From a virus: a stretch of DNA of 28,666 nucleotides. Numbering within the stretch: position 1 is the first letter of the stretch; each line of letters opens with the position of its first letter. Location: positions 1 to 28,666 of the IMG/VR virus record IMGVR_UViG_3300024351_000066; one strand, given 5' to 3'. Below, piece after piece: positions 4,473 through 27,508 of the stretch. A model generated the notes under the pieces. It was given only the letters and a program-made list of their open reading frames with translations. It was not told the origin of the DNA and made no database searches. The translations under genes were made by a program, and so were the position numbers.

Positions 4473-4501
4473 TTGACATAATAATTTTGTCATAGTATAA
4501 T
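4473..4501 (+). promoter_or_regulatory. Sigma70-type promoter for the initiator operon (unit A)
   Basis: A consensus TTGACA (4473-4478) and consensus TATAAT (4496-4501) are separated by 17 bases. It lies just after the membrane-protein stop and drives the initiator gene and its followers. The predicted transcript would start at about 4508, so the 5' leader is only about 20 nucleotides and is mostly one hairpin. Confidence 0.85.
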
Positions 4502-5391: not shown

Positions 5392-5644
5392 CACGTATGA
5401 TGCGACGGGTAGAACAGGAAAAGAATCAGCCGTTATAAGATCGTTCTGGTGTGAATATACAATGGAACAAGTTCAGCAAATGTCGCAGGAAGAGTTAGAT
5501 AAATCCATTAGTGATTCTTTAGACAGATATGCAGCAGAAAGAATGAAGATGGACAAAAGATGGGACTGGCCAATTCCTCAAGGATGGTCCTTAATAAAGA
5601 GAAACAAAAATTCTCTTGACAAGAAAGACAAAAATATAATATAA
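5372..5644 (+). CDS. 90-aa conserved protein of unknown function
   Basis: Start overlaps the previous gene by 20 bases. The product begins with a basic MRKRKNDTYDATGRTGKE and has a helical middle (MEQVQQMSQEELDKSISDSLDRYAAERMKMDKRWDW). I do not recognise the family. It is the last gene before the terminator and is about 94% identical at protein level to the unit B copy (21229-21501), one of the better conserved genes outside the capsid. Confidence 0.7.
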   Translation: MRKRKNDTYDATGRTGKESAVIRSFWCEYTMEQVQQMSQEELDKSISDSLDRYAAERMKMDKRWDWPIPQGWSLIKRNKNSLDKKDKNII

Positions 5645-5690
5645 TTATCTTATTCATTACTTCCCTTACTAGGTTATGAATATATATATA

Positions 5691-5780: not shown

Positions 5781-5786
5781 TATAAT
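5781..5786 (+). promoter_or_regulatory. -10 box for a leaderless transcript (unit A)
   Basis: A TATAAT directly after the terminator U-tract is followed after 5 bases by the ATG at 5792. No Shine-Dalgarno fits between them. A -10 box this close to the start codon is the usual arrangement for leaderless mRNAs. No good -35 box is seen. Confidence 0.6.
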
Positions 5787-5791
5787 TGAGT

Positions 5792-6016
5792 ATGAAACAT
5801 CGTGGTGATTTTCGAGATTTTGTGAGTGTACAGGCAGATAATGAAATGAGACTTTATCCATACGCCAAGGATCTTTATTATAGACCAGATGGAAATCTGA
5901 TTATGACGATTGAAATCTACGATGACGAGAATACATACGAGCAGACTTTTGGATTCATGACAAGCGGGAAGCTTAAAGAATTTCTAGATCAGCTCTGGGA
6001 TCAAGAGGAAGAATAA
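5792..6016 (+). CDS. 74-aa acidic conserved protein, probable leaderless start
   Basis: The ATG at 5792 is chosen over an upstream in-frame TTG (5786) because the TTG lies within the -10 box. The product begins MKHRGDFRDFVSVQADNEM and is predicted as beta strands (NLIMTIEIYDDENTYEQTF) with a C-terminal acidic helix (LKEFLDQLWDQEEE). No family recognised. Its stop overlaps the next ATG (TAATGG). The unit B homologue is almost identical in the middle but has a different start and a longer C-terminus. Confidence 0.7.
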   Translation: MKHRGDFRDFVSVQADNEMRLYPYAKDLYYRPDGNLIMTIEIYDDENTYEQTFGFMTSGKLKEFLDQLWDQEEE

Positions 6017-6381
6017 TGGCAGTTAAAGGTTCAAGAACAAAAAGTATTGCTAAAGTAAAAAAACCTAAACCTGGAGCAGGTTCTGGTAAAAAAACAGAAC
6101 GCATTTCTCCACAAGAAATTTCTAAATTTAAAAATGAAGTTCAAAAACAAAAATCAAAAGCAAACTTGGCTATAACTGCACGTTACAATAAATACACTGG
6201 CACGGGAACTACTAAAAGCGTAGGTGGACGAGAGTATGCAAAGGTTGCTGTACCAATTACAATTAATACTAATCTAAAAAAACCAAGAATAAAAGTCGGA
6301 AAAGTAAGTAAAAGATCAGGGTACCTTCCAAGACAAGTTTCTGGACGAAGAAAATTAGTAGAACAAAAAGGAATGAAATAA
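6016..6381 (+). CDS. 121-aa lysine-rich basic protein, unit A only
   Basis: Strongly basic and low in complexity at the N-terminus (TKSIAKVKKPKPGAGSGKK), then a short beta-like part (GREYAKVAVPITINTNLKKP) and a basic tail. No family recognised. It is the first of a set of four basic proteins present in unit A between the 74-aa gene and the small terminase gene; unit B has no counterpart to it. Coupling to its neighbours by TAATGG overlaps makes it a true gene. A DNA- or RNA-binding role, for example compacting DNA during packaging, is possible but only suggested by charge. Confidence 0.65.
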   Translation: MAVKGSRTKSIAKVKKPKPGAGSGKKTERISPQEISKFKNEVQKQKSKANLAITARYNKYTGTGTTKSVGGREYAKVAVPITINTNLKKPRIKVGKVSKRSGYLPRQVSGRRKLVEQKGMK

Positions 6382-6599
6382 TGGCTAATACTATTAAAAA
6401 ACAACAAAAACAACAATTAAGAAAATATATAAATAAAGCTGCTAAAACTGTTAGAGTTACACAGCTTCCACGTGTAAAAGATTTAGGTACTTTAAGGCCA
6501 GCCAAACTAACCAGAACAAAAATTGTTGTAGATCCAGGCCAAACACGAGGACAACAGCTTAAAAAACAAAGATTAAAAAGAAAAATGAAAAAGAAGTAA
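6381..6599 (+). CDS. 72-aa very basic protein, unit A only
   Basis: Nearly every third residue is K or R; the start is MANTIKKQQKQQLRKYINKA and the end QRLKRKMKKK. No hydrophobic segment is present. The start and stop overlap neighbours (TAATGG at both ends). Absent from unit B. Probably a nucleic-acid-binding small protein; function unknown. Confidence 0.6.
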   Translation: MANTIKKQQKQQLRKYINKAAKTVRVTQLPRVKDLGTLRPAKLTRTKIVVDPGQTRGQQLKKQRLKRKMKKK

Positions 6600-6751
6600 T
6601 GGCTAGAATAGTAGATGTAAATAAACACGGGATCAGAAGAGAAATTGATCACCAATGGAGGAAAAAGAAAAATGGCAGTAAAAAGAACTTCAAAACAAAA
6701 GGTTTTGAATCCAAAGAAAAAGCCTTACAAGGCCCCAGCCAGAGCAAATAA
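6599..6751 (+). CDS. 50-aa basic micro-protein conserved at N-terminus in both units
   Basis: Begins MARIVDVNKHGIRREIDHQW. The first ~16 residues match the 44-aa protein at 21906 (MARIIIDTNKHGIRRE) although the rest differ, so this is the shared member of an otherwise A-only basic cassette. The ATG overlaps the previous stop (TAATG), and its last 80 bases overlap the next gene in another frame. The divergent C-terminus may be a consequence of the overlapping frame. Function unknown. Confidence 0.6.
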   Translation: MARIVDVNKHGIRREIDHQWRKKKNGSKKNFKTKGFESKEKALQGPSQSK

Positions 6752-6944
6752 AGAGGGCATTGCGGCATCTGTATACGATATAGCTAAGGCTGGTCAAAAT
6801 GCCAATCCTTTAGCCATTATTAGAATGATTAATGGTCGTAGAACCCCTATATCAACGGGCGGGAAATCAAGAAGTACTACCTCTACAACTAGAAGAAGAA
6901 CAAGAACAATCAAGACTCAAGCTAGATCATATAGAGGAAGATAA
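6672..6944 (+). CDS. 90-aa basic protein, unit A only
   Basis: Start ATG at 6672 preceded by GGAGG about 10 bases upstream; an upstream in-frame TTG at 6645 is less likely. The product begins MAVKRTSKQKVLNPKKKPYK and ends in a threonine/arginine-rich tail (STTSTTRRRTRTIKT). A short helical part in the middle (GIAASVYDIAKAGQNANPLAIIRMI) is the only non-basic stretch. No homologue in unit B; family not recognised. Confidence 0.6.
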   Translation: MAVKRTSKQKVLNPKKKPYKAPARANKEGIAASVYDIAKAGQNANPLAIIRMINGRRTPISTGGKSRSTTSTTRRRTRTIKTQARSYRGR

Positions 6945-7204
6945 TGGCACTCAAAAGACCTAAGCTAATAAAGTATGGCAAAACATCTACAGGTGAGTAT
7001 AAAGAATTACCTGGAAAGAGAAGAAAATCATCTGGCCTTCCAAAACCTTCAAAGCCTCCAAAGCCTAAGAAGGAAACAAAGACAAAGCTTAATAAAAGAC
7101 TTGGCAGGATAGTGGTTTTGAATAATAAACCAAGCAGAAGATTGTCACCAGATCTAGATGTTGTTGCATTATCTAGGATAAAGAACGCTAGAAGGAAGAA
7201 ATAA
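6944..7204 (+). CDS. 86-aa proline/lysine-rich basic protein, unit A only
   Basis: Begins MALKRPKLIKYGKTSTGEYK and contains a KPSKPPKPKKETKTK stretch that is probably disordered, then LGRIVVLNNKPSRRLSPDLD. The start overlaps the previous stop (TAATGG). Last gene of the basic cassette, directly before the non-coding block in front of the small terminase. Function unknown. Confidence 0.6.
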   Translation: MALKRPKLIKYGKTSTGEYKELPGKRRKSSGLPKPSKPPKPKKETKTKLNKRLGRIVVLNNKPSRRLSPDLDVVALSRIKNARRKK

Positions 7205-9342: not shown

Positions 9343-10737
9343 ATGAAAGACGTAAGAGTAGCCCTTGAACAAATTATCACAAAACGAGAAGGTTATAAGC
9401 AAGCTGAGGCGTATTATGAAGGCGTAAACGCTGAGGTATTTGCAAATCAACGCTGGTTTAAGCTATTTCGCTACGAGGGCAGCGATTTTAGATTTAATTT
9501 TTCTAAAACAGTAGTAGATGCAGTTCTAAATCGTTTGGAAATCAAGCAAGTCATGGCAGGAACAGAAGAAGCTATGGACTATATTGATACTATTTGGGAT
9601 CAGACAGACATAAAGCTTGATATTAACGAAATTCATAGAAATGCGCTTGTCTATGGAGATTCATATGCAATTGTTTGGCCAAACGAAAATGGAGAACTAA
9701 CAATTGACTACAACTCACCAATGACAACATGTGTAGTTTATAGCCAAGAGAATCCTCGTGAAAAAGAATTTGCAGCTAAACTATGGCAAATAACTTCTAA
9801 CAACCAGAAGATTCTTAAACTAAACATGTATTATCCAGATCGCATTGAGAAATATGTTGGATATGGAGACATTGACCTAGTTTCACACCAAATGAACATG
9901 ACTGCGATGGAAACAATCCCAAATCCATGGGGTGAGATTCCAGTATTCCACTTCCGCACACACAAGCCATTTGGAAGACCAGAACATGCTGATGCATACG
10001 GTCCACAAGATGCTATTAATAAGCTTATTTCAACACACATGTTGACTGTAGATTATCAGGGTGCACCACAGCGTTATGCGCTTGCTGCAGGAGGAAATTC
10101 AAACGAATTTGATGATTTCTCTGATGATGATACAGCAAGAGAGAACTTGGCAGCCCTACAAAATGGTCCAGGTGAACTATGGTATCTACAAGGTGTCTCA
10201 TCTGTTGGACAATTCCCAGCAGCAGACCCAGGTATCTTTACAAATCCAGTAATTGAATATGTCAACGCAATGGCATCAATTACATCAACACCAAATCATT
10301 ACTTCATGAGAGGAGCAACACTTCCATCAGGACAGGCACTTCGTGTGGCTGAAGCTCCTTTATTCAAGAAAGTACTAAATAGACAGCTTTCATTCGGTTC
10401 AACATGGAGAGACTTGTTCAAATTCATGTTTAAGATTGAAAATATTCCAGCTGATGTAGAAATCAAATGGGAAAATGCAGAATCAGTAGATTCGCTAGAC
10501 AATTGGGATATAGCAGTTCGCAAGAAGTCAGTTGGTGTAGGTTTATACCAGATTCTTCTTGAGGCAGGTTATGACCCAGAAATTGCAGATGCAATTGTAG
10601 CTGAGTCGCAGGCACAACAGGGCTTGCCACCAGTTCCTACATCTGAAGTTGTAAACGCACACAATTACGCTCTAGAGCAACAGGCTATGGAACGTGCTTA
10701 TGCCCTAAATCAGGAGCAAGGCGAAGTTAATCCTTAA
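9343..10737 (+). CDS. Portal protein
   Basis: 464 residues, SPP1 gp6-like portal family by pattern: N-terminal helices (KREGYKQAEAYYEGVN), the FSKTVVDAVLNRLEI segment, a wing with FHFRTHKPFGRPEHADAYG, and the crown/stem region ITSTPNHYFMRGATLPSGQA with a long helix LFKKVLNRQLSFGSTWRDLF. It forms the dodecameric DNA gate at one capsid vertex. Ribosome binding site AGGAGATAAG precedes the ATG two bases after the terminase stop. The C-terminal ~40 residues are glutamine-rich. The stop codon lies inside the stem-loop that overlaps the scaffold ribosome binding site. Confidence 0.92.
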   Translation: MKDVRVALEQIITKREGYKQAEAYYEGVNAEVFANQRWFKLFRYEGSDFRFNFSKTVVDAVLNRLEIKQVMAGTEEAMDYIDTIWDQTDIKLDINEIHRNALVYGDSYAIVWPNENGELTIDYNSPMTTCVVYSQENPREKEFAAKLWQITSNNQKILKLNMYYPDRIEKYVGYGDIDLVSHQMNMTAMETIPNPWGEIPVFHFRTHKPFGRPEHADAYGPQDAINKLISTHMLTVDYQGAPQRYALAAGGNSNEFDDFSDDDTARENLAALQNGPGELWYLQGVSSVGQFPAADPGIFTNPVIEYVNAMASITSTPNHYFMRGATLPSGQALRVAEAPLFKKVLNRQLSFGSTWRDLFKFMFKIENIPADVEIKWENAESVDSLDNWDIAVRKKSVGVGLYQILLEAGYDPEIADAIVAESQAQQGLPPVPTSEVVNAHNYALEQQAMERAYALNQEQGEVNP

Positions 10738-10750
10738 TTGGACGATTAGG
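10733..10750 (+). promoter_or_regulatory. Stem-loop with UGGACG loop overlapping the scaffold ribosome binding site (unit A)
   Basis: CTTAAT (10733-10738) pairs with ATTAGG (10745-10750) around loop TGGACG (10739-10744). The 3' arm supplies AGG of the AGGAG Shine-Dalgarno (10748-10752), and the portal stop TAA is in the 5' arm. Protein bound to the loop would hide the scaffold start site. Confidence 0.65.
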
Positions 10751-10758
10751 AGAATAAA

Positions 10759-11211
10759 ATGGAAAATGAACTCGTAGAAGGTACATCTACAGAGATCAAA
10801 GACCCAGTAGCAGTTTTGGCTGCTCTGGATCGTGCAAAAAATGACGCTAAGCGTTTTAGAATGGAAAAGGAAGCGGTAGAGGCAGAAATTGCTGCTACTA
10901 GAGAAAGAGCTAACTTAGTACAAACTAAACTTAAGAATGACAAGATAATTAGACAACTCATGGAAAATGGGGTTCCTAATGCTGATAAATTGCTTAAGTA
11001 TATTAAAACATCAGAAATTAATTTAACTGATGATTTTGAAATCGAAGGATTGGATAGCCAATTGGATGCCCTTAAAACGGATTTCCCTGAACTATTTGAC
11101 CCTAAGAAAATTGTCGGCGGACGTGCTGATTCTGGAGTATCTTCATCTGTTGATTCTCCGCTATCTGCAACCGAATTACAGGCAAAATACGTGCTTGGAG
11201 AAATTATTTAG
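10759..11211 (+). CDS. Capsid scaffolding protein
   Basis: 150 residues between portal and major capsid genes. The first half is a charged coiled-coil (LAALDRAKNDAKRFRMEKEA, then EIAATRERANLVQTKLKND), the second half acidic and ends with a conserved tail (SATELQAKYVLG). Small size, coiled coil and position are typical of scaffolds that direct HK97-type capsid assembly and leave before maturation. No protease domain or separate protease gene is seen. Start has AGGAG six bases upstream, which is partly paired in the UGGACG stem-loop. Confidence 0.8.
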   Translation: MENELVEGTSTEIKDPVAVLAALDRAKNDAKRFRMEKEAVEAEIAATRERANLVQTKLKNDKIIRQLMENGVPNADKLLKYIKTSEINLTDDFEIEGLDSQLDALKTDFPELFDPKKIVGGRADSGVSSSVDSPLSATELQAKYVLGEII

Positions 11212-11213
11212 TG

Positions 11214-11219
11214 TATAAT
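11214..11219 (+). promoter_or_regulatory. -10 box of a probable capsid gene promoter (unit A)
   Basis: TATAAT directly after the scaffold stop, conserved at 26054-26059. No convincing -35 box is present, so this is tentative. A start about seven bases downstream would place the first UGGACG hairpin at the very 5' end of the capsid transcript. Confidence 0.45.
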
Positions 11220-11226
11220 AGATGTG

Positions 11227-11279
11227 TGCAAGCTAGATGGACGTTTAGGCTTGCAGACAGAAATATTTGGACGAATATT
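11227..11279 (+). promoter_or_regulatory. Two tandem UGGACG stem-loops in the capsid leader (unit A)
   Basis: Hairpin 1 (11227-11255): TGCAAGC with GCTTGCA, extended by TAGA with TTTA across one bulged G, loop TGGACG at 11238-11243. Hairpin 2 (11262-11279): AATATT with AATATT, loop TGGACG at 11268-11273. Only six bases separate them. The stems are unrelated but the loops are the same as in the scaffold stem-loop. Confidence 0.7.
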
Positions 11280-11325
11280 AATCTCAAGCTAACAAAATCT
11301 AACTTATGAAAAGGATAAAACTATA

Positions 11326-12225
11326 ATGGCAAGACAAGAACTTACTGTCGCTAATGGTTATATCATCGAAGAGCACAGCTCCAACGTTGTTCAGGCTGCA
11401 TTGCAGAATTCTGCAATTGAAAGCCAAGCACGTCGTGAGCCAATGGCAACTTCTGTGAAGCGTGTTCCACGTTTCGTTGGAGATGCTCCAGCAGTTTATG
11501 CTGAAGGTGCGACAATCGGTGAATCATCTGTAACTCTAGACGACATCACCCTAACAGCTCGTAAGTGGGCTAAGATTATGCACATCTCTGAAGAGGATAT
11601 GAATGACTCATTCATCGATGTACTTAATACATACAAGACTCAGTGGGCAACCAACTGGGCAAAGAAATTCGACAACGCATGCCTTGGTGTGACAGTTGCA
11701 GGAGACGGAACAGACACAGCACCATATACTTCTGTATATCGTGAAGTTTCACAGTACAACTCAGCTTCTAACCTCATCCAAACAGCAGGCGCTGTTACAT
11801 TCGCAGACTTGAACGATGTTCTTTCAAAGATCGAACAATCTTCATACTTTGATGCAGCTAAGACAGCATTCATCATCCACCCATCATTCCTAGGAACTCT
11901 TCGTGGCCTTGTTGATGACAACAATCGCCCAATTCTTCAGGATCCACTAGGTGCTCGTGGAGCAACTCTATTCGGCTACCCAGTAGTCGTATCAGCAGGC
12001 GCTGCTACATCTTCAGCTGCTTCAGCTGCACCAGCAGGAAATCCACTTTTGATCGTTGGTAACACCGATCTTATGGTTAACGGTGTTCGTGCAGGCATCG
12101 AATCTATGGTATCGAAGGATGCTAAATTTGACACAGATGGAGTTCTTCTTAAGGTTCGTGCACGTCGTGCATTCGCTGTTGCTAAGCCAGAAGGCTTTGC
12201 AATCGTTGAGAAGACTTCAGCGTAA
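11326..12225 (+). CDS. Major capsid protein (HK97 fold)
   Basis: 299 residues, no N-terminal delta domain, so assembly relies on the separate scaffold. Recognisable parts: N-arm with SQARREPMATSVKRVP, E-loop region (YAEGATIGESSVTLDDITLT), spine helix HISEEDMNDSFIDVLNTYKT, and the A-domain with FIIHPSFLGTLRGLVDDNN and FGYPVVVSAGAATSS. Codon use is visibly richer in C-ending codons than in neighbours, as expected for a highly expressed gene. It differs from the unit B protein at only about six positions (for example Q4T, I31V, R139C), much less than the flanking genes, and includes a 140-base exact match (11974-12113). Leader of ~100 bases carries two stem-loops. Confidence 0.93.
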   Translation: MARQELTVANGYIIEEHSSNVVQAALQNSAIESQARREPMATSVKRVPRFVGDAPAVYAEGATIGESSVTLDDITLTARKWAKIMHISEEDMNDSFIDVLNTYKTQWATNWAKKFDNACLGVTVAGDGTDTAPYTSVYREVSQYNSASNLIQTAGAVTFADLNDVLSKIEQSSYFDAAKTAFIIHPSFLGTLRGLVDDNNRPILQDPLGARGATLFGYPVVVSAGAATSSAASAAPAGNPLLIVGNTDLMVNGVRAGIESMVSKDAKFDTDGVLLKVRARRAFAVAKPEGFAIVEKTSA

Positions 12226-12239
12226 GGAGGAAATAACTA

Positions 12240-12671
12240 ATGGCTTCTAAACTATACGGAAATTTCCTACTTAAGGCTCTAAATAAGGAAGTTGATTTTG
12301 ATTCAGATACCATCAAGGTAGCTCTTCTTTCATCTTCTTACACACCAGATCAGGACGCTCATGACTACTTCAACGATGTTTCTACATACGAAGTATCAGG
12401 AACAGGTTATACTGCTGGTGGAGCAACTTTAGCTTCTAAAACAGCTACATACGATTCAAGCACAAACGTAATCGTACTTGATGCTGCTGACGTTACTTGG
12501 TCATCATCTACAATCACAGCTCGTTATGCTGTTGTATATGATTCAACAGGTACTGCAAGCACATCAGCACTAATTGGTTATGTAGACTTCGGTTCAGACC
12601 AGTCTTCAACCAACGGTAACTTCACAATTACATGGGATTCGACAGGCATAGTTCGAATCACAGTAGCGTAA
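12240..12671 (+). CDS. Beta-rich virion-type protein next to capsid gene (decoration or head fibre?)
   Basis: 143 residues, rich in S, T, G and aromatic beta motifs: begins MASKLYGNFLLKALNKEV, then DTIKVALLSSSYTPDQ, later VVYDSTGTASTSALIGYVDF and a C-terminal ITWDSTGIVRITVA. A family of similar small proteins is often found in phage structural regions, usually without assigned function. A strong GGAGGAAATAACTA ribosome binding site and position right after the capsid gene suggest high expression, fitting a decoration or tail-tube-like component. I prefer decoration/head fibre, with low certainty on the exact role. Confidence 0.65.
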   Translation: MASKLYGNFLLKALNKEVDFDSDTIKVALLSSSYTPDQDAHDYFNDVSTYEVSGTGYTAGGATLASKTATYDSSTNVIVLDAADVTWSSSTITARYAVVYDSTGTASTSALIGYVDFGSDQSSTNGNFTITWDSTGIVRITVA

Positions 12672-19028: not shown

Positions 19029-19372
19029 TGTTGTTTGACACACTCAGAAGAGCCAAATATAATTATACTGCAGACTATTATGGCTATAGAAGAGTAACTT
19101 CTGCGGACGGAACAGTAACAGAAAATATTTATGAAACAATTCCAAGTCCAATCATACTTGCATTAAGTACAACATTTATAGGAGATATAGTTATATTAAC
19201 TAATTCTAAATTACAAAAAGCTGGTTATTTGGCCAACATAAGAGATAGAAATGGAAATGAAATTTATGATGAAGGTCAGTGGGAAATCAAATCCACACAG
19301 CCAGTAGTCAATGCTTTAGGTTTTGTAGAAGGATATAAATATAAAGCAAAAATTATTTCTGGTGATGTTTAA
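19028..19372 (+). CDS. Putative head-closure/stopper-like protein (unit B)
   Basis: 114 residues starting MLFDTLRRAKYNYTADYYG; the conserved YRRVTSADGTV aligns with the A copy at 3897, which is eleven residues longer. An upstream in-frame start at 18995 would lie well inside the adaptor gene and is rejected in favour of the TAATG overlap. Less than half identical to A by eye, one of the most diverged structural genes. Confidence 0.5.
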   Translation: MLFDTLRRAKYNYTADYYGYRRVTSADGTVTENIYETIPSPIILALSTTFIGDIVILTNSKLQKAGYLANIRDRNGNEIYDEGQWEIKSTQPVVNALGFVEGYKYKAKIISGDV

Positions 19373-21660: not shown

Positions 21661-21918
21661 ATGTATTATCTAGTGAGACATCGTGGAGATTTCAGAGATT
21701 TCGTGAGTGTACAGGCAGATAACGAGATGAGACTATACCCATATGCCAAAGATCTATACTATAGACCAGATGGCAATTTGATTATGACAATCGAAATATA
21801 TGACGACGAAAACACATACGAAAAGACTTTTGGGTTTATGACAAGCGGTCCACTAAAGGAATTCCTAGATCAACTATGGGATCAGGATGGAGAAAATGGG
21901 GCGGGATGGCTAGAATAA
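21661..21918 (+). CDS. 85-aa acidic conserved protein (unit B)
   Basis: Homologue of the 74-aa protein at 5792 from RHRGDFRDFVSV on. The codon aligned with the A start is a GTG at 21676; the upstream ATG at 21661 is favoured because it sits 6 bases after a TATAAT box, adding five residues (MYYLV). The C-terminus is extended (DGENGAGWLE) and overlaps the following small gene by 13 bases. Function unknown. Confidence 0.65.
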   Translation: MYYLVRHRGDFRDFVSVQADNEMRLYPYAKDLYYRPDGNLIMTIEIYDDENTYEKTFGFMTSGPLKEFLDQLWDQDGENGAGWLE

Positions 21919-22040
21919 TAATAGACACCAATAAACACGGAATAAGAAGAGAAACCAATCTAGATGCCCTATATAAAGCAAAGATTAAAAAAGATCAAAA
22001 GAAGAAAGCTTGGCTAGAAAAGAAAAACAAAACTAAATAG
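21906..22040 (+). CDS. 44-aa basic micro-protein (unit B)
   Basis: Begins MARIIIDTNKHGIRRETNLD; N-terminal match to the 50-aa protein at 6599 in unit A shows it is a real, shared gene. The second half is lysine-rich (KIKKDQKKKAWLEKKNK) and unlike A. In unit B it stands directly after the 85-aa gene, showing that the A basic genes were added (or the B ones lost) on both sides of it. Confidence 0.6.
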   Translation: MARIIIDTNKHGIRRETNLDALYKAKIKKDQKKKAWLEKKNKTK

Positions 22041-24183: not shown

Positions 24184-25578
24184 ATGTCAGACATTAAAAT
24201 AGCCCTTGAGAATATTTTGACCAAAAGAGAAGGTTATCAGAAAGCTGAAGCCTACTATGAAGGTGTAAATGGCGAAGTATTCGCTAATCAACGCTGGTTC
24301 AAGGTATTTCGATATGAGGGAAGCGATTTTAGATTCAATTTTAGCAAGACAGTTGTAGATTCAGTTCTCAACCGCCTTGAAATCAAGCAAATCCTGGCTG
24401 GAACAGAACAAGCAATGACTTACATTGATGAAATCTGGAATCAAACAGATCTAAAGCTTGATATTAATGAAATTCACCGTAATGCTCTTGTATTTGGTGA
24501 TTCATATGCAATTGTATGGCCAGATGAAACTGGAACATTAGCAATTGATTACAACTCACCTATGAGCACAACCATTATCTATAGCCAAGATAATCCTCGT
24601 CAGAAGGAATTTGCGGCTAAGATTTGGCAAGTATTGGATGGAAATACAAAGCTTATTAAACTAAACATGTATTATCCAGATCGTATTGAGAAGTATATGG
24701 GATATGGCGATATTGATACAATTACCAATAACATAAACCTCTCATTGATGGAAACAATTCCAAATCCATGGGGAGAAATTCCTGTATTCCACTTCCGCAC
24801 ACATAAACCATTCGGAAGACCAGAACATGCTGATGCATATGGTCCACAGGATGCAATTAACAAGTTAATCTCAACTCACATGTTCACCGTTGATTATCAA
24901 GGTGCTCCACAGCGCTATGCATTATCAAATGGCGGTAGTTCATCTGAATTAGATGATTTCTCAGAGGATGATACAGCTAGAGAGAACATTGGTGCCCTAC
25001 AAAATGGCCCAGGTGAACTTTGGTATTTACAAGGAGTCTCATCTGTTGGACAATTCCCAGCAGCTGATCCAGCAATATTTACAGAACCAGTAATGGAATA
25101 TGTAAATGCGATGGCATCAATTACATCAACTCCAAATCATTATTTCTTGAAGGGCTCAAACATTCCTTCAGGCCAAGCACTTCGTGTAGCTGAAGCACCT
25201 TTATTCAAGAAGGTACAAAATCGTCAGCTTGCATTTGGTTCAACCTGGAGAGACTTATTTAAGTTCATGTTCAAGATTGAAAACATTCCTGCAGACGTAG
25301 AAGTTAAGTGGGAAAATGCAGAGTCAATTGACTCATTAGATAATTGGGATATCGCAGTTCGCAAGAAGTCTGTAGGTGTAGGATTACGCCAGATTCTTCT
25401 TGAGGCAGGATATGATCCAGAAATCGCAGATGCAGTTGTGGCAGAATCCATGAATCAACAAGGATTACAAGCAAATCCAACATCTGAAGTAATAAATGCA
25501 CATAACTATGCGCTTGAACAAGCTGCCATAGAAAGAGCCACTGTCCTAGATCAGGAACAGGGCGATATAGAACCTTAA
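24184..25578 (+). CDS. Portal protein (unit B)
   Basis: 464 residues, same length as A. Conserved blocks: FSKTVVDSVLNRLEI, ETIPNPWGEIPVFHFRTH, GPQDAINKLISTHM, SGQALRVAEAPLFKK. Differences gather in the wing surface (about residues 120-190) and the C-terminal tail. Begins after AGGAGATAAT. The stop is in the 5' arm of the UGGACG stem-loop as in unit A. Confidence 0.92.
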   Translation: MSDIKIALENILTKREGYQKAEAYYEGVNGEVFANQRWFKVFRYEGSDFRFNFSKTVVDSVLNRLEIKQILAGTEQAMTYIDEIWNQTDLKLDINEIHRNALVFGDSYAIVWPDETGTLAIDYNSPMSTTIIYSQDNPRQKEFAAKIWQVLDGNTKLIKLNMYYPDRIEKYMGYGDIDTITNNINLSLMETIPNPWGEIPVFHFRTHKPFGRPEHADAYGPQDAINKLISTHMFTVDYQGAPQRYALSNGGSSSELDDFSEDDTARENIGALQNGPGELWYLQGVSSVGQFPAADPAIFTEPVMEYVNAMASITSTPNHYFLKGSNIPSGQALRVAEAPLFKKVQNRQLAFGSTWRDLFKFMFKIENIPADVEVKWENAESIDSLDNWDIAVRKKSVGVGLRQILLEAGYDPEIADAVVAESMNQQGLQANPTSEVINAHNYALEQAAIERATVLDQEQGDIEP

Positions 25579-25591
25579 TTGGACGATTAGG
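25574..25591 (+). promoter_or_regulatory. UGGACG stem-loop overlapping the scaffold ribosome binding site (unit B)
   Basis: CTTAAT (25574-25579), loop TGGACG (25580-25585), ATTAGG (25586-25591), then AG completing AGGAG. Identical to unit A although the portal gene just upstream is diverged. Confidence 0.65.
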
Positions 25592-25599
25592 AGAAATAA

Positions 25600-26053: not shown

Positions 26054-26059
26054 TATAAT
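26054..26059 (+). promoter_or_regulatory. -10 box of a probable capsid gene promoter (unit B)
   Basis: TATAAT at the same place as in A, after the scaffold stop; no clear -35 box. Confidence 0.45.
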
Positions 26060-26066
26060 ATATATG

Positions 26067-26119
26067 TGCAAGCTAGATGGACGTTTAGGCTTGCAGACAG
26101 AAATATTTGGACGAATATT
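26067..26119 (+). promoter_or_regulatory. Two tandem UGGACG stem-loops in the capsid leader (unit B)
   Basis: Hairpin 1 at 26067-26095 (loop 26078-26083) and hairpin 2 at 26102-26119 (loop 26108-26113), both identical to unit A. Bases just before (TATATATG versus GATGTGTG type) and after have changed. Confidence 0.7.
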
Positions 26120-26165
26120 AATTCTCAAGCTAACAAAATCTAACTTATAAAAGGATAAAACTATT

Positions 26166-27062
26166 ATGGCAAGAACAGAACTTACTGTCGCTAATGGTTA
26201 CATAATCGAAGAGCACAGCTCAAACGTTGTTCAGGCTGCATTGCAGAATTCTGCAGTTGAAAGCCAAGCACGTCGTGAGCCAATGGCAACTTCTGTGAAG
26301 CGTGTTCCACGTTTCGTTGGAGATGCTCCAGCAGTTTATGCTGAAGGTGCAACAATCGGTGAATCATCTGTAACAATTGACGACATCACCCTAACAGCTC
26401 GTAAGTGGGCTAAGATTATGCACATCTCAGAAGAGGATATGAATGACTCTTTCGTAGATGTTCTTAATACATACAAGACTCAGTGGGCAACCAACTGGGC
26501 AAAGAAATTCGACAACGCATGCCTTGGTGTGACAGTTGCAGGAGACGGAACAGACACAGCACCATATACATCTGTATATTGTGAAGTTTCACAGTACAAC
26601 TCAGCTTCTAACCTCATTCAAACAGCAGGCGCTGTTACATTCGCAGACTTGAACGATGTTCTTTCAAAGATCGAACAATCTTCATACTTTGATGCAGCTA
26701 AGACAGCTTTCATCATTCACCCATCATTCCTAGGAACTCTTCGTGGCCTTGTTGATGACAACAATCGCCCAATTCTTCAGGATCCACTAGGTGCTCGTGG
26801 AGCAACTCTATTTGGCTACCCAGTAGTCGTATCAGCAGGCGCTGCTACATCTTCAGCTGCTTCAGCTGCACCAGCAGGAAATCCACTTTTGATCGTTGGT
26901 AACACCGATCTTATGGTTAACGGTGTTCGTGCAGGCATCGAATCTATGGTATCTAAGGATGCTAAATTTGATACAGATGGAGTTCTTCTCAAGGTTCGTG
27001 CACGTCGTGCATTCGCTGTTGCTAAGCCTGAAGGCTTTGCAATCGTTGAGAAGACTGCATAA
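26166..27062 (+). CDS. Major capsid protein (HK97 fold, unit B)
   Basis: 298 residues, about 98% identical to A, and also nearly identical at DNA level, in contrast to the flanking terminase and portal genes. R139 of A is C here (SVYCEV). The last residues are EKTA rather than EKTSA. The low synonymous divergence points to recombination between the two lineages across the capsid region or to strong codon constraint from high expression. Confidence 0.93.
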   Translation: MARTELTVANGYIIEEHSSNVVQAALQNSAVESQARREPMATSVKRVPRFVGDAPAVYAEGATIGESSVTIDDITLTARKWAKIMHISEEDMNDSFVDVLNTYKTQWATNWAKKFDNACLGVTVAGDGTDTAPYTSVYCEVSQYNSASNLIQTAGAVTFADLNDVLSKIEQSSYFDAAKTAFIIHPSFLGTLRGLVDDNNRPILQDPLGARGATLFGYPVVVSAGAATSSAASAAPAGNPLLIVGNTDLMVNGVRAGIESMVSKDAKFDTDGVLLKVRARRAFAVAKPEGFAIVEKTA

Positions 27063-27076
27063 GGAGGAAATAACTA

Positions 27077-27508
27077 ATGGCTTCTAAACTATACGGAAAT
27101 TTCCTACTTAAGGCTCTAAATAAGGAAGTTGATTTTGATTCAGACACTATCAAGGTGGCTCTTCTTACATCTTCTTATACACCAGATCAGGACGCTCATG
27201 ACTACTTCAACGATGTTTCTACATATGAAGTAACAGGAACAGGTTACACATCTGGTGGAGCTACTTTGGCTTCTAAAACAGCTACATACGATTCTGCAAC
27301 AAACGTAATCGTACTTGATGCTGCTGACGTTACTTGGTCATCATCTACAATCACAGCTCGTTATGCTGTTGTATATGATTCAACAGGTACTGCAAGCACA
27401 TCAGCTCTAATTGGTTATGTAGACTTCGGTTCAGACCAGTCTTCAACCAACGGTAACTTCACAATTACATGGGATAGCACAGGTATTGTGCGTATCACAG
27501 TAGCGTAA
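27077..27508 (+). CDS. Beta-rich virion-type protein next to capsid gene (unit B)
   Basis: 143 residues, differing from A at a handful of positions (for example VALLTSS for VALLSSS, EVTGTGYTS for EVSGTGYTA). Strong GGAGGAAATAACTA ribosome binding site kept. Probable decoration or similar capsid-associated protein. Confidence 0.65.
   Translation: MASKLYGNFLLKALNKEVDFDSDTIKVALLTSSYTPDQDAHDYFNDVSTYEVTGTGYTSGGATLASKTATYDSATNVIVLDAADVTWSSSTITARYAVVYDSTGTASTSALIGYVDFGSDQSSTNGNFTITWDSTGIVRITVA

Follow-up and report, generated by a model that had tools for sequence, protein, structure and literature searches.

The window, by which we mean the whole 28,666-nt stretch of DNA that was analysed, consists of two diverged copies of the genome of one small tailed phage (units A and B) arranged head to tail with a start-to-start distance of 14.8-15.9 kb, and both of its ends (positions 1 and 28666) fall inside a long LamG-like fibre gene. 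Either two related genomes form a natural concatemer here, or the assembly joined them. A terminase large subunit, an SPP1-type portal, a Phage_scaffold protein and an HK97-type capsid protein were recognised in it with Pfam and PHROGs. The features that concern the leaders of the scaffold and capsid genes are the following.

10730..10752, + strand: scaffold-leader hairpin of unit A, TCC.TTAAT TGGACG ATTA GGA, with arms CTTAAT/ATTAGG at 10733-10750 and loop at 10739-10744
10759..11211, + strand: scaffold gene of unit A (Pfam Phage_scaffold, E 2e-11)
11214..11219, + strand: TATAAT -10 box of the predicted capsid promoter of unit A, without a -35 consensus
11227..11255, + strand: first capsid-leader hairpin (hp1) of unit A, arms TGCAAGC+TAGA / TTTA+(G bulge)+GCTTGCA, loop at 11238-11243
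11262..11279, + strand: second capsid-leader hairpin (hp2) of unit A, arms AATATT/AATATT, loop at 11268-11273
11285..11289, + strand: CAAGC third strand of unit A, which can pair with GCTTG of the hp1 3' arm and so replace the hp1 5' arm
11326..12225, + strand: major capsid protein gene of unit A (Pfam Phage_capsid, E 2e-27)
25571..25593, + strand: scaffold-leader hairpin of unit B, loop at 25580-25585
26054..26059, + strand: TATAAT -10 box of unit B
26067..26095, + strand: hp1 of unit B, loop at 26078-26083 (dual-hairpin model, E 4e-11)
26102..26119, + strand: hp2 of unit B, loop at 26108-26113
26126..26130, + strand: CAAGC third strand of unit B
26166..27062, + strand: major capsid protein gene of unit B, 98% identical to the unit A capsid

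By capsid, the isolated phage most closely related to the window is the satellite MiniFlayer (OQ357865), with 44% identity in a tblastn search, and the satellite Mulchroom is also among the capsid matches. MiniFlayer and the window-type genomes have in common, in the same order, TerS, TerL (about 46% identity), portal, scaffold, capsid (44%), gp6 (up to 75%), fibre and adaptor, so that a MiniFlayer-like structural module of homologous proteins from TerS through TerL, portal, scaffold, capsid and gp6 to the fibre is present. According to its description (PMC10690885), MiniFlayer is a virulent satellite and has no known primases, and neither hairpins nor stem-loops were found by a term search of that paper. 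Among the subset of window ORFs that was scanned, no primase or polymerase was found, although some genomes of the family encode an HTH protein that resembles replication initiators. We infer that the window phages are satellite-like. Integration in bacterial genomes was considered and rejected, since the sole genome-contig match is a short contig (L141, RHCX01000049.1) binned in the archaeal MAG Nitrososphaeria WBC_8_2A_255, which is probably a misbinning.

Several other genes of the window deserve mention. The gp6 gene, which adjoins the capsid gene (12240-12671 and 27077-27508), belongs to phrog_644 of unknown function; in some relatives its product is 75% identical to that of MiniFlayer, an unusually strong conservation compared with only 44-47% for capsid and terminase. 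Upstream of TerS lies a small acidic protein with an LFPYAKD core (5786-6016 and 21661-21918), which is present in 18 of 18 genomes compared by transitive similarity and matched no Pfam or PHROG family. Unit A also contains several short lysine/arginine-rich ORFs before TerS (6016-7204), and unit B is devoid of them save for one partial relative at 21876-22040.

The hexamer TGGACG occurs nine times on the + strand of the window and not at all on the other, with 4.0 +/- 2.0 expected over both strands. Six of the nine are flanked by at least 5 bp of complementarity and are the six hairpins listed above; the other three (1125, 6225 and 6342) lie in coding sequence and have arms of less than 4 bp. 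As a background, flanking arms of at least 4 bp were found for only 2.5% of arbitrary hexamers in 1.09 Mb of relatives. The original prediction had described three unlike stems presenting one TGGACG loop, one on the AGGAG of the scaffold gene and two in tandem in the capsid leader, all recurring in unit B, and every one of these was found on the + strand of both units at the coordinates given, with the unit B loops starting at 25580, 26078 and 26108. It had also claimed that the coding copies lack matching arms, which is so, with one position corrected from 6228 to 6225. The 3' arm of the unit A scaffold-leader hairpin overlaps the AGGAG, and the portal stop codon lies inside the hairpin. Folded alone, positions 11226-11282 give exactly hp1 and hp2 (-13.7 kcal/mol, z -3.3, none of 200 shuffles as stable), and the scaffold hairpin is weak (-4.2 kcal/mol, z -1.2).

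Some 200 capsid-leader loci were gathered: viral contigs were scanned three times by capsid, and a dual-hairpin DNA pattern and a terminase scan seeded on MiniFlayer added further loci. Tandem hairpins are present in every directly read capsid leader except one, with capsids down to about 44% identity. The exception is L160 (2300-2433), the sole relative in which the promoter box and hp1 are lost and hp2 is kept, through either a deletion or an assembly collapse. Between clades the stems are wholly different (for example TAAG/CTTG, GGCGA/TTGCC and GAGAC/GTCTC), and the loop takes the forms TGGACG, CGGACG, TAGACG, TGGACA and TAGACA; the hp2 loop of L042 and L043 is a seven-base variant, TGGTACG.

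Covariation was measured in alignments cut in register around the loop, with hairpins partly picked by arm length where there were several loop matches, a procedure that somewhat favours structure and under which 94.0% of hp1 cells were paired in 47 unique sequences, compared with 68.1% after shuffling. Sixty-nine hp1 cells had changed on both sides, against 21 in the shuffled alignments, and none of 500 shuffles reached as high; sliding the partner by one column, in controls made from the same loop-registered cut, reduced pairing to 36-50%. For hp2 (40 unique sequences) the values were 88.8% paired against 68.9% shuffled, with 47 double-sided changes against 19. When 43 thinned leaders were aligned jointly, 95.1% of cells were paired against 75.7% shuffled, with 91 double-sided changes against 23. 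Mapped on a capsid tree (119 rows), the hp1 pairs showed at least 15, 22, 28, 28 and 25 changes and the hp2 pairs up to 23, and the hp1 pair -1/+1 is standard in all 119 rows. A covariance model found one strong site per genome in 34 genomes, with E values from 1e-8 to 1e-14.

The loop obeys a strict rule: 104 of 105 unique hairpins fit [TC][GA]GAC[GA]. At positions 1 and 6 these hairpins have T.G (75), C-G (19) or T-A (10) and never C.A, a combination which the search pattern permitted on the tree set and which did not occur there. This pair changed 10 and 9 times on the capsid tree and was always U.G, C-G or U-A. Because positions 1 and 6 covary, they probably form a Y-R pair that closes an R-G-A-C tetraloop. 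In the four upper stem pairs of the same hairpins (positions 1 and 6 left free), G.U occurs 43 times and A.C twice. Since G.U is tolerated almost only in the sense reading, the RNA is the conserved thing, and a DNA-level or antisense function was rejected. Judged by these comparisons of sequence, the capsid-leader pair is a real and widely conserved RNA element under selection, and the loop is its conserved part. The check that had been proposed for the original prediction, a covariance model with a search of related genomes, was thus strongly passed by the capsid pair, and the view that the hairpins are RNA elements under selection, with a constant loop and tied to capsid and in some genomes also scaffold genes, is supported.

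In all 116 unique leaders a TAnAAT or TATACT box lies upstream, mostly with 17-21 nt from the box end to loop 1; the distance from loop 1 to loop 2 is 29.9 +/- 1.4 nt, and loop 2 sits 58 +/- 4 nt before the capsid ATG, off the ribosome site. A promoter scan of the window found no -35 partner for the capsid -10 box. With a predicted start about 6 nt past the box, the first paired base would be 0-11 nt from the 5' end, and the element would thus form the predicted 5' end of the capsid mRNA, a placement derived from a -10 box without a -35. In the sequence searched, the element is also restricted to the leaders of capsid and scaffold genes. Outside capsid and scaffold leaders, [TC]GGACG with arms of at least 4 bp was found only twice in 1.09 Mb (131 distinct loci). 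Each newly fetched dual-pattern locus that was checked had the element 30-60 nt before a capsid gene of the same family, including one contig that stops just past the capsid start, with the start still visible; the scan gave at least 80 contigs, and this context holds among the matches listed.

Two stem-loops directly after a promoter recall the putL site of phage HK022, which is about 70 nt long and lies just downstream of PL (PMC9378689). Conceivably, the two hairpins act on RNA polymerase while the RNA is being made, either by themselves, as in put, or with the help of a factor from phage, helper or host, and cause processive read-through of the long structural operon from capsid to fibre that comes after the element in the window. 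The layout is the same (PMC9378689), with about 70 nt and two stem-loops right after a promoter (here predicted only). The tight promoter-to-loop spacing of the present leaders and the long operon behind them also speak for this reading. However, the hairpins here are short, share one loop and precede structural genes, whereas put serves early genes, and no sequence relation to put is known. Terminator-like sites are not enriched in the region (12 against 9.2 +/- 3.1 expected), and antitermination would leave the copy on the scaffold SD unexplained; we consider it unlikely, though a serious alternative. The same position would suit a 5' stabiliser or an RNase processing signal, in which terminal hairpins guard the capsid mRNA or set its processed end, and the first paired base 0-11 nt from the predicted start and the A-rich stretch leading to the SD agree with this. 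Protection, however, requires stable stems and not a fixed loop, the pair that closes the loop is in most cases a weak U.G, and two hairpins with the same loop are kept where one would do, which makes this explanation quite unlikely.

In the seven relatives on the MiniFlayer side (L285-L290 and L293), two [TC]GGAC[GA] loops lie in the scaffold-capsid gap, 33-37 nt apart (46 nt in L285), on stems that are often longer and composite and that in some cases have just two pairs under the loop. MiniFlayer itself has TGTACG (UGUACG) twice in the corresponding part of its capsid leader, with a spacing of 33 nt and the second copy 63 nt before the ATG, so that its loop would be GUAC where the others have GGAC. 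This repeat amounts to one 8-mer, GTGTACGC, and could be due to chance, yet its place and spacing match those of the relatives. The covariance model does not retrieve MiniFlayer, and its membership therefore rests on position and geometry. The concerted loop change, a single case, would point to a partner evolving together with the phage. The element was not found in Mulchroom or in the lytic phages with related capsids (Yara, KimJongPhill, Zuko, Rooney, Isperia, OscarSo and Wyvern), and no tandem element was seen in the first 50 kb of the helper phage MindFlayer, the part with the head genes.

The scaffold-leader hairpin is distributed differently. It was found in 16 of the 112 rows scored on the capsid tree, where it changed 6 times, and most relatives with the same gene order lack it. 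In 26 loci whose flanks diverge, among them the distant L052, the string TTAATTGGACGATTAGGAG stays the same, and because this sequence is invariant there is no covariation. On this evidence the scaffold hairpin is a real but clade-limited addition, and the original expectation that all three hairpins would be retained with the gene order and would covary failed for this copy.

As the best explanation, which we hold with moderate confidence, we suggest a dual-hairpin leader that is read by a protein and sets head-gene expression. The capsid mRNA of the small MiniFlayer-related phages would open with a cis-acting RNA of two hairpins, each presenting the same small loop on a freely varying stem, with the loops about 30 nt apart (33-46 nt in the MiniFlayer clade). 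Both loops, on the transcript as it is made or once it is complete, would be recognised by a trans-acting RNA-binding factor, probably dimeric or acting as two copies, which would set the amount of capsid and downstream structural protein after transcription start. In part of the family a third copy lies on the scaffold ribosome-binding site, where binding would directly block scaffold translation, and in several clades the factor may lock one state of a two-state leader. The transcription start, the recognition by a protein and the direction of the effect are what we infer here; a host or helper factor, RNA polymerase itself and a virion protein are all possible readers of the loop.

RNA-phage coat operators, such as those of MS2 and PP7, are small hairpins with a specific loop tied to capsid-related genes, and the scaffold protein of P22 autoregulates its own synthesis, for which we know of no defined RNA site. 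The original prediction was of this kind: a protein, perhaps scaffold or capsid protein, would bind the loop and balance the translation of the two. The conserved loop RNA at the capsid and scaffold genes bears out part of this proposal, but a simple operator does not fit, the scaffold copy is clade-limited and the shared core proteins checked are nearly all acidic. The small specific-loop hairpin, sometimes with a 5'-side bulge below an upper stem of 4-5 bp, does resemble the MS2 and PP7 operators. However, the present phages are dsDNA phages, and because the capsid pair stands in tandem at the predicted mRNA 5' end and off the ribosome site, a simple MS2-type operator does not fit; a hairpin over the regulated ribosome site is found for the scaffold copy and not for the capsid pair, and binding by capsid protein is unsupported. 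Autoregulation, in which scaffold or capsid protein that builds up unassembled would attach to the loops and repress the mRNA that encodes it, would be a special case of the protein-read leader. It would account for the confinement of the element to capsid and, in some genomes, scaffold genes, and for the concerted loop change of MiniFlayer if this reflects a co-evolving partner, and the proteins common to MiniFlayer and the freshwater clades are packaging and virion proteins. These are nearly all acidic, however; scaffold (pI 4.7-5.1) and capsid (pI about 5) have no RNA-binding domain, the loop is near-constant although capsid identity drops to 44-50% and scaffold identity to about 40%, the capsid SD is uncovered and the scaffold site is missing from most genomes. 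We therefore regard autoregulation as doubtful. No known RNA-binding domain was found among the universal phage proteins examined. Two further binders were rejected: a small basic protein next to TerS, which exists in few genomes only, and the universal small acidic ORF before TerS, for which the model was of low confidence and the fold matches were not significant.

We also compared the leader with other RNA elements that are read by proteins. A CsrA/Rsm binding site requires GGA in the loop, and was rejected because 17 of 105 unique hairpins have AGA. Protein-specific recognition of a small tetraloop hairpin in a 5' leader is known for LoaP and dfn, where the tetraloop is of the UNCG type (PMC12691694); here the loop is RGAC and not UNCG, there are two copies and the operon encodes a phage capsid. 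The greatest likeness in form is to the targets of ANTAR-domain proteins, which in actinobacteria are common and consist of two stem-loops with six-nucleotide loops carrying A1 and G4 and a linker between them (PMC8164766). Dual stem-loops with hexanucleotide loops, variable stems, a conserved loop and a short linker are all found here, in relatives of actinobacteriophages, which would allow an ANTAR protein of an actinobacterial host as the reader. However, the loop is Y-R-G-A-C-R, with T or C at position 1 and A at position 4 in all 105 unique hairpins, so that none has the A1/G4 pattern, and the capsid pair stands before phage capsid genes, off the ribosome site, and includes neither an intrinsic terminator nor an SD. 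An ANTAR target is therefore very improbable. By analogy, the element would work like other dual-hairpin leaders that are read by proteins, and its loop sequence places it outside the ANTAR, CsrA and LoaP target families.

A search of Rfam 15 gave no family above the gathering threshold and two sub-threshold matches to eukaryotic snoRNAs (E 3-5), clear of the hairpins, and literature searches gave no described element of such kind before phage capsid genes. As far as these libraries and the literature were searched, the element is undescribed. Post-transcriptional control of the head genes of tailed phages is poorly understood, and a compact loop-specific RNA element is found here in some 200 small phage contigs. 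A factor derived from the helper would provide an RNA-level link between satellite and helper, and one from the host would define a new pairing of an RNA with the protein that recognises it. Because the isolated satellite MiniFlayer, with its altered element, grows on a laboratory Streptomyces strain, work with loop mutants, pull-downs and reporters is within reach.

The hp1 stem has a competitor. In the full 100-nt leader of the window the minimum-energy fold is an alternative with hp1 opened, and a strand lying between hp2 and the SD is a second possible partner for the hp1 3' arm. Over 61 leader types, pairing with the leader's own third strand gave a mean of -6.1 kcal/mol and with swapped strands -3.8 kcal/mol (rank test P 2e-5, with the types treated as independent though they are related). 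The effect is strongest in L285-L289, L293 and MiniFlayer, where the own strand is the best or near-best of the swaps with energies near those of hp1 itself, and likewise in L066, L035, L117, L149 and the window clade; as a universal feature it was rejected, being absent in the large L140-type clade. In the window leader there is no U-tract after the alternative helix and the capsid SD is unpaired in both folds, and attenuation by an intrinsic terminator or by SD sequestration was rejected for these reasons. Because hp1 competes with the alternative helix in several clades, the leader may possibly be a two-state switch. For MiniFlayer-type leaders we tentatively put forward, as a proposal of low probability, a bistable leader with both RGAC hairpins formed in one state and, in the other, the hp1 3' arm paired to the third strand beyond hp2, which would dissolve hp1 and enclose hp2; a factor reading both loops, possibly supplied by the helper, would lock the first state and license shell production only when the helper is present.

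Two further observations concern the surroundings of the element. The window also has perfect TTGACA-17/18-TATAAT promoters at 4473-4501, 5616-5645 and 19035-19063, unlike the -10-only capsid promoter, and an early/late distinction between the two kinds is possible. In the Microbacterium phages Isperia, OscarSo and Wyvern (L059, L060 and L061), the scaffold-capsid gap holds another conserved long hairpin, with a GACGTC stem within a CTCGTGATGAG / CTCATCACGA outer stem; the hairpin ends near the capsid ribosome site.
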